Shown here: positions 11,863-13,785 of the stretch, one piece after another | Layout of the letters: every line of letters begins with the position of its first letter | Position numbering within the stretch: position 1 is the stretch's first letter | Assembly: GCA_905373315.1 (NCBI GenBank) | Contig: CAJPSL010000002.1 | Coordinates: 1 to 15,034, forward strand | Source of the DNA: Candidatus Saccharimonadota bacterium | GTDB taxonomy: Bacteria > Patescibacteriota > Saccharimonadia > Saccharimonadales > Saccharimonadaceae | DNA: 15,034 nucleotides | Direction of reading: 5' to 3' | The notes under the pieces: generated by a model | Seen by the model: only the letters and a program-made list of their open reading frames with translations | What the model was told of the DNA's origin: nothing | Database searches by the model: none | Translations under genes and position numbers: made by a program

Positions 11863-11989
11863 GAGAATCAAAAAGACGTCTTTGATTCTCGCACTACCAA
11901 AGACGTCAAATAAAACTGTTCGTTTCATCCCTCGGCGGCATATTTACATCTGTTTATCAGCCAGATCGCCGCTGTCTTTGGTAATGTTC
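11863..11989 (-). promoter_or_regulatory. rplJ leader, L10-type attenuator with mutually exclusive stems
   Basis: In RNA order, P1 pairs 11974-11982 with 11896-11904 (9 bp, perfect) and encloses P2 (11968-11972 with 11935-11939) and P3 (11962-11966 with 11948-11952). The 3' arm of P1 is also the 5' arm of a terminator hairpin (11898-11907 with 11875-11884, 10 bp perfect). A third hairpin (11881-11890 with 11863-11872, 10 bp perfect) competes with the terminator's 3' arm. So P1 acts as antiterminator against the terminator stem. Known L10 leaders in Firmicutes use L10-(L12)4 binding to switch such stems; that the same protein acts here is inference. Confidence 0.7.
11870..11907 (-). terminator. 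Attenuating terminator in the rplJ leader
   Basis: A perfect 10-bp stem (11898-11907 with 11875-11884), 13-base loop, followed on the minus strand by five T (11874-11870). It lies about 70 bases before the rplJ start, so it must be conditional. Confidence 0.7.
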
Positions 11990-11995
11990 CTCACC

Positions 11996-12024
11996 ATTGT
12001 AGCAGAAATGACAACGAAATGCAA
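11996..12024 (-). promoter_or_regulatory. Promoter of rplJ-rplL
   Basis: TTGCAT (12019-12024), 17-base spacer ending in TGC, TACAAT (11996-12001). Transcription would start near 11989, which is just ahead of the P1 stem of the leader. It is close in design to the adhesin promoter (TTGCAT-17-TAGAAT). Confidence 0.7.
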
Positions 12025-12042
12025 CAGGCATATTATATCAAA

Positions 12043-12076
12043 CCAAAGAGAAAGCCCGCTCCATGGTGGAGCGGGC
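12043..12076 (-). terminator. Intrinsic terminator after the adhesin gene
   Basis: A perfect 10-bp GC-rich stem (12054-12063 with 12067-12076), 3-base loop, and a T-rich tail on the minus strand (TTTCTCTTT). It separates the adhesin unit from the rplJ promoter. Confidence 0.85.
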
Positions 12077-12110
12077 AGCAAACCTCCTTTCTCTCTGTAT
12101 CTCATTTCCT

Positions 12111-12151
12111 CACCGAGGGATGCCCGTCGTGATGACGAGCATCCCTCGGTG
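12111..12151 (-). terminator. Long hairpin just after the adhesin stop, no T tail
   Basis: A perfect 13-bp stem (12111-12123 with 12139-12151) continues, after one mismatch, into a 4-bp inner stem with a 5-base loop. It begins 5 bases after the stop codon and is followed by a mixed sequence, not T's. Such tail-less GC-rich hairpins are commonly called as terminators in Actinobacteria. It could instead protect the mRNA 3' end. The standard terminator lies further on. Confidence 0.55.
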
Positions 12152-12156
12152 GTATG

Positions 12157-13629
12157 TCAATCCTCGCGCGAGGAGCGACGCCGCTGAGCCTCGACGAAAC
12201 CGCCGAAGCCTAGGCCTACAACAATCAGACCTGCCGATAGTTTAATCAGCAGGTCACCGTTGGTGCCCGTGTGGGCCAGCCCCCCTCCCGGCCGCTTGTG
12301 CGGCGGCTGGGGAGGTGTCACAACCTCCTGACCCCGCGTGGGGGTCGGGGAGGCGGCCGGCACCGTCGCCGAAGGCGTGGCCTTCGGCGACGGCGTGACC
12401 AACGGCGATGGGGTTGCCGTCGCGCTTGGCGACGGCGTCGGTGTCACTGTCGCGCTGGGCGATGGTGACGGAGTTGGCATCGGTGTTACGCTTGGCGTCG
12501 CCGAAGGTGTCGGTGTCGGCTCCGGGGTAGGAGTTGGAGTCGGCTCCGGACTCGGTGTAGGCTCCGGAGTTGGTTCCGGAGTCGGACTCGGGGTTGGTTC
12601 TGGAGTCGGCTCTGGTGTCGGAACCGGCTCCGGCCTGGTGAGGTAGCTGGCGCCACCCCCAGCTTCTGGCCTCCGCACGGTAGCGCTACTGTCCCAGGAT
12701 TTCTCCTGGGACGTAATTACGACAGAGTCAGTCCACGGACCAGGGTCCGTGGAACTGACGGTGAGTTGCAGTTCAAAACGGGCTTTTTCGCCCGTGTTGA
12801 GCTGCAGCCTTAGGGTCACGGTGGTGGAGGTGCACTCCACCACCGTGACAGGAACGTGACGGGTATACTGGGGTTGCCCCCATACACCCGCGGACGAGTA
12901 GACCCCCGCTTGCCCCGCTGGCGCGGGACAAGCGAACTCCTGGCCGGAGGACGTAAGCACGTCCCGGATTAGGAACTCCTGAGAGTCGGTGGTGGCGGTG
13001 GGACTAACCACCGTCACCGTAGCCTTTGAGGGGTTGTTCTGATGAACGACCCCCCACTTGGAGACTCCGGGTCCGGGCTGGTTACAGCCCGGACATTCAG
13101 AGACGTGCACCTCTGTCCGACGGGTTTCACCGTCGATTTGCCAGAGGAGATCCCGGGTTTCCCCGGGGATGAGGGTGTCCTTCATGGACACCCGCCAGAA
13201 TGCGAACCCCTCAAAGTCATGCTTTGAGGGGTCTTCCACGACATCGGTCAGCGTAATGCTGACCTTGCCGTTGATGTAGGTGGCGTGGGCAATGATCTCG
13301 CCACTGTCTGTGGCGAGATCAACGGGGGCTCCGTTGGCCCCCAATTCAGCTGGGGGCGTGAAGGTGATGCTATCACCTTCACAGTGGCCCTCAGCGAGGG
13401 TCAAACCGACTCCAAACTCTACGGCCTTGTAGGCCGTAAAGTCTTTGCCATCTAGAGTGCGGATATATTCCGCACTCACTTCCCCCGCCGAGATCGGCCG
13501 GGGAGTGCACGACGACGTTGCCGTTGTCGCGTCGGGGGCCTCGGGGGCAGCGGCTGCCACCCCCGAGAACCCGAAGACCATAGCTAACAGCGCAAACAGC
13601 GCTGCTAGCCCATGTCGCTTTTGTGTCAT
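12157..13629 (-). CDS. Secreted adhesin-like protein, Pro/Thr-rich stalk, LAHTG sortase signal
   Basis: The protein has 490 residues. A signal peptide (about 1-28, KRH then a hydrophobic core ending VAAAA) starts it. The exported region 30-325 is beta-rich, with [36 protein letters not shown] and a following [11 protein letters not shown] segment. These resemble MSCRAMM/Cna-type Ig-like adhesin domains. A few cysteines (such as those in CPGC) could form disulfides. Residues about 330-430 are a [13 protein letters not shown] stalk. The end is a cell-wall sorting signal: LAHTG (451-455), a hydrophobic segment and a basic tail QRRRSSRED. It is probably displayed on the cell surface by a sortase, not seen here. 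AGGAG precedes the ATG by about 6 bases. G+C is about 62% in sampled lines. The coding sequence is saturated with hairpins (separate entry). The family style suggests acquisition from an actinobacterium. Confidence 0.85.
12334..12642 (-). repeat. Pro/Thr/Glu/Ser codon repeats encoding the stalk
   Basis: Imperfect tandem 6-12 base units encode PTPEP, PSP and PSAT runs (about residues 330-430). They create a false open frame on the plus strand. Perfect hairpins also occur here: 12363-12375 with 12381-12393 (13 bp, loop 5), 12416-12423 with 12429-12436 (8 bp, loop 5) and 12562-12568 with 12575-12581 (7 bp, loop 6). Unit number may vary between strains. Confidence 0.75.
12691..13609 (-). repeat. 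Contiguous array of about 25 hairpins inside the adhesin coding sequence
   Basis: Perfect stems (arm with arm): 12691-12699/12704-12712, 12732-12740/12745-12753, 12815-12829/12835-12849 (15 bp), 13071-13080/13085-13094, 13173-13180/13186-13193, 13206-13216/13222-13232, 13246-13252/13258-13264, 13294-13304/13310-13320, 13358-13368/13372-13382, 13420-13427/13431-13438, 13455-13463/13469-13477. With one RNA G-U: 12907-12918/12923-12934, 13583-13593/13599-13609. With one mismatch: 12991-13001/13008-13018, 13030-13039/13044-13053, 13510-13517/13522-13529. With a bulge: 13150-13157/13162-13170. Shorter or two-tier: 12778-12783/12790-12795, 12869-12873/12878-12882, 12949-12954/12959-12964, 13118-13123/13130-13135 inside 13110-13115/13142-13147, 13324-13329/13337-13342, 13388-13392/13396-13400, 13487-13490/13495-13498, 13540-13547/13560-13567. 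The arm sequences differ from hairpin to hairpin, so this is not a copied repeat. Typical spacing is 30-45 bases and most loops are 3-6 bases. Confidence 0.9.
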
Positions 13630-13684
13630 GGGATCTCCTAGCGTATAGGGATTGAAAGGATACAGATGTTAAAGTACATTTCGG

Positions 13685-13713
13685 TTCGCGTCCAGCTGGG
13701 CTGGAACAGCGAA
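13685..13713 (-). promoter_or_regulatory. Two-tier hairpin in the adhesin 5' leader
   Basis: 13691-13696 pairs with 13700-13705 (6 bp, 3-base loop), enclosed by 13685-13689 with 13709-13713 (5 bp). It lies in the roughly 120-base untranslated leader, about 55 bases before the ATG, and continues the hairpin theme of the gene. Confidence 0.55.
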
Positions 13714-13756
13714 TCAAAAATGACTCTAGCACATCCGTATCCCACTGGGCTTTACT

Positions 13757-13785
13757 ATTCTAGCATAAAATACAGAAAAATGCAA
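13757..13785 (-). promoter_or_regulatory. Promoter of the adhesin gene
   Basis: TTGCAT (13780-13785), 17-base spacer ending in TGC, TAGAAT (13757-13762). The predicted start near 13750 gives a leader of about 120 bases. The -35 and extended -10 match the rplJ promoter, so the gene appears wired to the resident sigma factor. Confidence 0.7.

Follow-up and report, generated by a model that had tools for sequence, protein, structure and literature searches.

The lpp transcript of E. coli is a stable structured message, and the messages of ompA and lpp reportedly owe their stability to stem-loops at the 5' end or to folding further inside. The adhesin transcript described here resembles them in having a leader hairpin beside the likely transcript start and hairpins at its end, but the lpp coding sequence has a folding z-score of only -1.55 and a single stem of at least 7 bp. 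We know of no bacterial message with a density of coding-region hairpins like that of the adhesin gene. Perfect inverted repeats within coding genes, with arms that encode conserved residues, have been described in the mitochondria of Nematomorpha, where the arms change together with amino-acid consequences, few stems are imperfect, and arm conversion via template switching is discussed for the palindromes (PMC6649704; a further hairworm paper is PMC10380579). Template switching can create and maintain RNA hairpins (PMC8794818), and the arms of inverted repeats in yeast coding sequences are homogenised by it (PMC8604942). In studies on coding-region mRNA structure in bacteria (PMC3763529, PMC4619774) and on protein constraint in yeast (PMC2216430), structure acts as an evolutionary constraint, and the effects appear to be transcriptome-wide and statistical. 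A bacterial transcript tiled in hairpins has not been described within the open-access literature searched.

Oral Saccharibacteria have a lifestyle attached to other bacteria. The window, by which we mean the whole stretch of 15,034 nucleotides that was analysed, comes from a Candidatus Saccharimonadota bacterium and contains an adhesin coding sequence of 490 amino acids on the minus strand (12157..13629). Judged by its sequence, the product has a signal-like start, a head of about 300 amino acids and a Pro/Thr stalk, followed by an LAHTG motif, a hydrophobic segment and, at the end, a basic tail. The head is predicted to be all-beta, and structure comparison of the model (alignment of 39 sequences) shows the MSCRAMM adhesin fold of the tandem Ig-like type found in CNA, ClfA and SdrG. 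Similar to CNA, ClfA, SdrG and Cnm, the protein has a two-domain beta head, which appears to be joined to a stalk and a putative sortase-type anchor. However, its candidate anchor motif is LAxTG rather than the LPxTG of sortase anchors, and the head is only 8-16% identical to MSCRAMM proteins in this protein-level comparison (50 matches listed). The Pfam domain Big_8 (PF17961) scores 19.9 bits in the window protein, which is below the gathering cut-off of 22.9, and is present as a precomputed domain in many of the listed homologues.

The interval between rplA and rplJ is an adhesin exchange site, with promoter, leader and terminator regions that are alike and head domains that differ between relatives (window 12157-13629; L001:7957-9261; L002:8225-9519). 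No open reading frame of at least 60 amino acids was listed in this interval in L006 and L008. The adhesin of OX335598 (L002:8225-9519) is read in more than one frame, and a pseudogene, an assembly error and phase variation are alike possible. By eye, the homologues look mosaic, with near-identical C-terminal blocks and divergent head segments (23 of the 120 listed were aligned), which suggests frequent recombination. Further candidates weighed on the basis of the sequence are diversity-generating retroelements, integron cassettes and invertible segments.

The coding sequence contains 26 perfect stems of at least 6 bp with loops of 3-8 bases, 15 of at least 7 bp, 12 of at least 8 bp, nine of at least 9 bp and six of at least 10 bp; with overlaps removed, 24 stems of at least 6 bp are left. 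The corresponding means in 1000 codon shuffles are 3.5, 1.3, 0.52, 0.16 and 0.08, with maxima of five stems of at least 8 bp and two of at least 10 bp, and none of the 1000 shuffles matched any native count. With isolated defects tolerated, 23 stem-loops cover 581 of the gene's first 960 nt, and the head domain (12670..13609, minus strand) is thus tiled with hairpins. A preliminary description of this DNA had claimed about 25 stem-loops in about 920 bases within 12691-13609, ten of them perfect, with 8-15 bp in the stem and 3-5 bases in the loop. The count of ten holds if the stem at 12732-12753 is taken with a four-base loop. Its expectation of about 0.1 such stems is a few times too small when the whole gene is considered, which is of no consequence. 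It had further claimed, rightly, that this is a real adhesin coding region, and also that nothing similar occurs in the other genes. Each of the ten other window genes tested has zero or one stem of at least 8 bp, which agrees with that claim and differs from the long repeats across many genes of the hairworm type. Across 6458 windows of 900 nt from 128 loci, the maximum was four stems of at least 8 bp, as compared to ten in the adhesin gene, and in 2240 such windows from the near-complete genome of a close relative (G002) it was three.

The longest perfect stem of the head, all features being on the minus strand, has 15 bp and a loop of 5 (12815..12849), and in some homologues its residue pairs VT or TV are replaced by TV, NL, MM or IM. 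A stem of 12 bp with a loop of 5 is located at 13293..13321, and two stems of 11 bp have loops of 3 (13358..13382) and 5 bases (13206..13232), the latter with third codon positions that pair mutually. The stem at 13071..13094, which encodes CPGCNQPGP, has 10 bp and a loop of 4. Stems of 9 bp are found at 13455..13477 (loop of 5), at 12732..12753 (loop of 4, or alternatively 10 bp with a loop of 2) and at 12691..12712 (GAAA loop), and stems of 8 bp at 13420..13438 (loop of 3, extendable via wobbles) and 13173..13193 (loop of 5). The arms differ in sequence from stem to stem, as had been claimed. Perfect stems extend into the Pro/Thr stalk, with one of 14 bp and a loop of 3 (12363..12393) and another of 8 bp and a loop of 5 (12416..12436), and strong hairpins are present in the leader and beyond the stop codon, the other places where the preliminary description had seen more stems. 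The loops are slightly A-rich (44 A and 24 T among 119 bases). Like the hairworm palindromes, the stems are perfect inverted repeats of coding DNA, and conserved residues are encoded on either arm. The hairworm repeats are up to 284 bp long, occur in many genes and are depleted in phase 3 (third positions paired) among the long ones (PMC6649704), whereas the adhesin stems are at most 15 bp long, tile one bacterial transcript together with its leader and post-stop hairpins, and are in phase 3 in six cases out of 12 (stems of at least 8 bp).

The predicted folding energy is equally extreme. The minimum free energy of the whole coding sequence is -772 kcal/mol, as compared to -489 ± 14.5 kcal/mol in 200 codon shuffles with pairs restricted to 60 nt, which corresponds to z-scores of -19.5 for the sense and -14.2 for the antisense strand. 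In the first 990 nt, shuffles that keep the protein, the codons and the dinucleotides gave -14.25 for sense and -11.44 for antisense, at -0.187 kcal/mol per nt, while the remainder of the coding sequence gave -3.7. Plain codon shuffles of the same 990 nt gave -13.81 and -14.25, respectively. Which strand folds more strongly hence depends on the shuffle, with sense ahead when dinucleotides are kept and antisense slightly ahead otherwise. For comparison, 150 of the 237 open reading frames of at least 300 amino acids in G002 (first 900 nt, 14 shuffles each) have a mean z-score of 0.02 ± 1.23 and a minimum of -4.6. The gene with this minimum, L105:10221-11657, is presumably an ATP synthase beta-like gene, and mild mRNA structure may accompany high expression.

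Fourteen phage genes at 68-74% G+C have z-scores from -2.98 to +1.16, which rules out G+C richness as the cause. A related idea is that the structure is a by-product of protein symmetry, with Val/Thr-rich antiparallel beta hairpins that are self-complementary and codons that follow from the high G+C content. The Val GTN and Thr ACN codons are indeed complementary, and the hairpin centres lie near predicted turns by one of two measures. However, the structure is lost in shuffles that keep protein, codons and dinucleotides, the G+C-rich genes lack such an excess, and coupled residue pairs such as P-G to A-A and G-P to N-L are atypical of strands, so that we find this explanation scarcely credible.

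The structured stretch coincides with the predicted transcript. Minus-strand windows of 120 nt centred at 12050-13757 have z-scores below -3 in 23 of 28 cases, as compared to two of 219 windows outside this range, both at the rplJ leader region. The border windows, counted in neither set, have z-scores of -3.6 (12034) and 0.3 (13774), and the window beyond, at 11974, has 0.1. Two leader windows miss -3 with windows of 120 nt and pairs of at most 60 nt. Read from the sequence, a promoter-like element with TTGCAT, 17 bp and TGCTAGAAT is placed at 13757..13785 on the minus strand, and L001 and L002 have a similar TTGCAT and a -10-like stretch ahead of the adhesin. The leader hairpin (13657..13743, minus strand), a single long interrupted stem, begins a few bases past the likely transcript start. 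Its z-score is -6.1 in the window, and that of the same hairpin is -2.1 in L001 and -4.1 in L002. Three of its 28 consensus pairs have both sides changed somewhere among the three sequences, and each of these lies at the outer end, adjacent to gapped columns. Compared with L001 and L002, both arms of the window hairpin (13657-13743) contain additional bases, which could be the trace of a template switch.

The post-stop hairpin (12111..12151, minus strand) has 18 pairs and a loop of 5 nt, and the z-score of the stretch from 12034 to 12159 is -9.7. In L001 and L002, the same helix is built from another sequence. Both partners differ in four of the 18 pairs, pairing is kept in 90.7% of 54 cells, and the covariation score of the helix was reached by nine of 500 shuffles, with three sequences only. 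Wobble-type changes are present in both the leader and the post-stop hairpins of these three sequences. A terminator-like hairpin of 10 bp (12054..12076, minus strand), with a T-rich run behind it, marks the place where the structure ends. The Shine-Dalgarno sequence and the start codon are predicted to be mostly paired and the following codons open, so that an open ribosome-binding site is unsupported as a mark of RNA selection. None of the eight Rfam matches at E ≤ 1 reaches its gathering score; the best one within the adhesin transcript is sucA-II on the antisense strand, with 30.3 bits against 70. Ahead of rplJ, the structured stretch at 11901-11999 resembles the ribosomal protein L10 leader, but below the threshold (34.1 bits where 44 are required, E 0.0028).

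The selected form might instead be a hairpin or cruciform of DNA, which could matter in single-strand uptake, for instance, or in guiding the recombination of mosaic alleles. Such selection would fit a pairing that is symmetric between the strands, homologues that share blocks by eye in a mosaic manner, and head domains that differ at the locus. The limitation of the structure to the transcript and the wobble-type changes seen in the leader hairpin and past the stop codon argue against it, as does the L001 adhesin, which is located at the same locus and has no perfect stem of at least 7 bp, and we regard it as very unlikely.

The pairing also concerns the amino-acid sequence. In half of the 12 stems of at least 8 bp, third codon positions face one another, and because of this mutual pairing two thirds of the pairs in these six stems are fixed by the amino acids. 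The earlier view that codon choice serves base pairing is borne out in that the shuffles are far exceeded, but it is incomplete, since the amino-acid sequence is itself shaped. Among encodable stems of at least 9 bp, six of 16 are in the third-to-third phase in the native protein, as compared to 44 of 918 in residue-shuffled proteins. Since no orthologue of this domain was found in the DNA searched, we turned to covariation at the protein level, with the first 120 matches listed from each of two protein searches. The mean z-score for encodable-stem content is 2.81 in 111 close homologues, 1.84 in nine distant ones and 0.07 in 121 rows with an L001-type head, all groups including near-identical rows.

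Stem by stem, a test of proteins in which both arms had changed gave 18 of 77 native combinations that are fully stem-compatible, as compared to nine of 198 unobserved combinations, and a mean difference of 0.028 against 0.003 ± 0.050 in the control. Since this was only suggestive, we permuted alignment columns independently. The set consisted of 44 of the 112 rows of group A, including the window protein, at less than 90% identity and with one gapped row removed, and six of 330 columns were set to the window residue. The mean encodable-stem length in these 44 proteins is 166.2, as compared to 150.4 ± 2.0 after permutation (z 8.1), and that of third-to-third stems is 46.0, as compared to 33.3 ± 1.4 (z 9.4), with none of 20 permutations reaching either value. 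Permutation in blocks of 30 columns retains an encodable length of 163.6, which indicates that the coupling between residues is local, as hairpins need. The covariation is specific to Watson-Crick pairing, with z-scores of 7.0 to 9.5 under this rule and -1.0 to 2.0 under three false pairing rules. For the control proteins with an L001-type head (12 of 121 rows), we obtained an overall z-score of about 2.5, while that of third-to-third stems was -0.5.

Several residue pairs illustrate these joint changes at the protein level, which may parallel the joint evolution of the hairworm arms. T262-V271 is TV in 99 of 120 proteins, NL in seven and incompatible in 14, and V263-T270 is VT in 67, TV in 11, MM and IM in one each and incompatible in 40. 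G181-P185, in the stem at 13071..13094, reads GP in 107 of 119 proteins, with NL in nine others, while P134-G141 is PG in 26 of 117, AA in 12 and incompatible in 79. Other pairs show no excess, for instance S135-E140, with 41 compatible proteins against 44 expected. Several of these changes may be single events in one clade.

The defects in the helices speak less clearly for RNA. They comprise 10 G-T, eight A-C and three other mismatches (10, 14 and 8 with a looser penalty), and the helices of codon-shuffled genes contain mostly other mismatches. The first non-pair past each stem is G-T in seven cases, A-C in seven and other in 10 (n=24). The near-equal counts weigh against the RNA reading, because RNA selection should tolerate G-U more, and they suit a process at the DNA level. 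The probability of at most 10 G-T among 18 is 0.003 if RNA selection gave 85% G-T, and 0.14 at 70%. The G-U share of the predicted fold lies under that of the shuffles on both strands (0.07 against 0.11, and 0.06 against 0.13). When G-T or A-C pairs are allowed in the covariation analysis, the z-scores are 4.4 and 4.3 and the ratios 1.09 and 1.04, which leans slightly to RNA but is not decisive. The transcript borders also count for RNA, as do the wobble-type changes of the hairpins in the leader and after the stop. Further points that weigh against RNA selection are the nearly equal folding of the antisense strand, the merely slight A excess of the loops, the two leader windows that miss -3, the predicted pairing of the Shine-Dalgarno sequence and start codon, and the weak z-score of lpp.

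Because the defects are strand-symmetric and the G-U share is low, template switching is retained, both because it is a strong rival and because it may be what supplies the stems. As a rival, it would produce concerted evolution with no benefit: the nascent strand folds back at quasi-palindromes, one arm is copied onto the other, and amino-acid changes spread to both. The template-switch model predicts perfect stems, multi-base compensation and paired amino-acid changes (PMC8794818, PMC8604942). In line with this, the adhesin stems are Watson-Crick perfect, their defects are mostly transitions with G-T about as frequent as A-C, paired changes such as T-V to N-L require double transversions, and the leader hairpin carries its extra bases in both arms; there are precedents for such a process (PMC6649704, PMC8794818). 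However, template switching should act genome-wide, and nothing comparable is seen in the ten other genes of the window or in the relative's near-complete genome. The cases described are scattered events in many genes (PMC8794818, PMC8604942), unlike this single saturated transcript with matching borders, and the structure stops at the transcript limits. The directional excess of G-C and T-A that is predicted for intrastrand switching (PMC8794818) is weak or absent, with GC 77, CG 65, TA 27 and AT 30 among the stem pairs. We thus consider template switching with no benefit unlikely as the whole explanation. The candidate causes named in the preliminary description, namely a folded mRNA, hairpins in DNA and template switching, are still the live ones.

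If the folded RNA is what is selected, its benefit could lie less in stability than in slow or punctuated translation, in step with the way a beta-rich adhesin is exported and folds. The predicted all-beta head behind a signal-like start would fit this. So would the hairpin centres, which lie 3.5 residues from predicted beta turns as compared to 5.0 in circular shifts, closer than 99% of them. A second measure shows no coincidence with the predicted strands, since half of the centres lie outside strands, as compared to 0.45 in the shifts, and 37% of the shifts are as good. Four of 16 open reading frames selected by their stalk have z-scores of -4.7 or lower (L088, L091, L092 and L093), one of which, L091, is the L001 allele, while two sortase-type genes of G002 are unstructured (z -0.4 and -0.7). 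The leader and post-stop hairpins, moreover, are unable to pace elongation, and we find pacing quite unlikely to be the benefit. The structured stalked surface-type genes L088:433-1779 (z -9.7), L092:970-2328 (z -6.0) and L093:1240-3309 (z -6.4) contain one, six and two perfect stems of at least 7 bp, respectively, at a density below that of the window adhesin.

The searches for homologue DNA gave 51 pattern matches in genome contigs and four in viral contigs, none of which was confirmed, and tblastn searches of phages and plasmids retrieved no homologue DNA of the adhesin. The head domain was not found in searches of 12, 392, 9 and 394 genomes, which are overlapping sets with the larger ones being samples, and the set of 392 contained no known positive and is uninformative. 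The 12-genome search gave one match and the 394-genome search 12, all on the stalk and anchor side (query 273 onward). The adhesins at the same locus in L001 and L002, which have another head domain, show mild excess structure, with z-scores of -3.1 and -3.3 in L001 and, in the second open piece of L002, of -1.8 and -2.9. Short-loop helices are unsupported as the source of the mild excess in L001 (z 1.1 to 1.5), and L002 is left out of this helix comparison, its shuffles having crossed the frame breaks. The locus or secretion is ruled out as a sufficient cause by the L001 allele, with its lack of perfect stems of at least 7 bp. The extreme form is so far that of one family, with DNA from one gene.

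We suggest, with a probability of roughly 0.45, that the adhesin transcript is selected as a folded RNA object, and we infer that selection acts on the RNA, not the DNA, and that stability is the benefit. The leader hairpin, the run of hairpins in the coding sequence, the post-stop hairpin and the terminator would leave little of the message single-stranded, and the folded message would most likely be shielded from single-strand-specific RNases, while folding may also slow the ribosome during export. Selection would be strong enough to pick codons and, over the history of the family, amino acids in coordinated pairs. Template switching in replication may supply perfect stems and copy changes from arm to arm. 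That whole-length folding is selected strongly enough for pairing to dictate coordinated amino-acid substitutions across a large adhesin family, with the protein following its own message, is a tentative proposal that we place a little short of even odds.

Synonymous choice for RNA structure is familiar, and structure that steers amino-acid replacement across a bacterial family was not found in the open-access literature searched. The locus offers a natural system in which RNA selection, DNA selection and template switching are separable by strain sequences alone. The adhesin belongs to the oral Saccharibacteria, whose attachment to other bacteria is poorly understood, and base pairing appears to steer the evolution of this protein.
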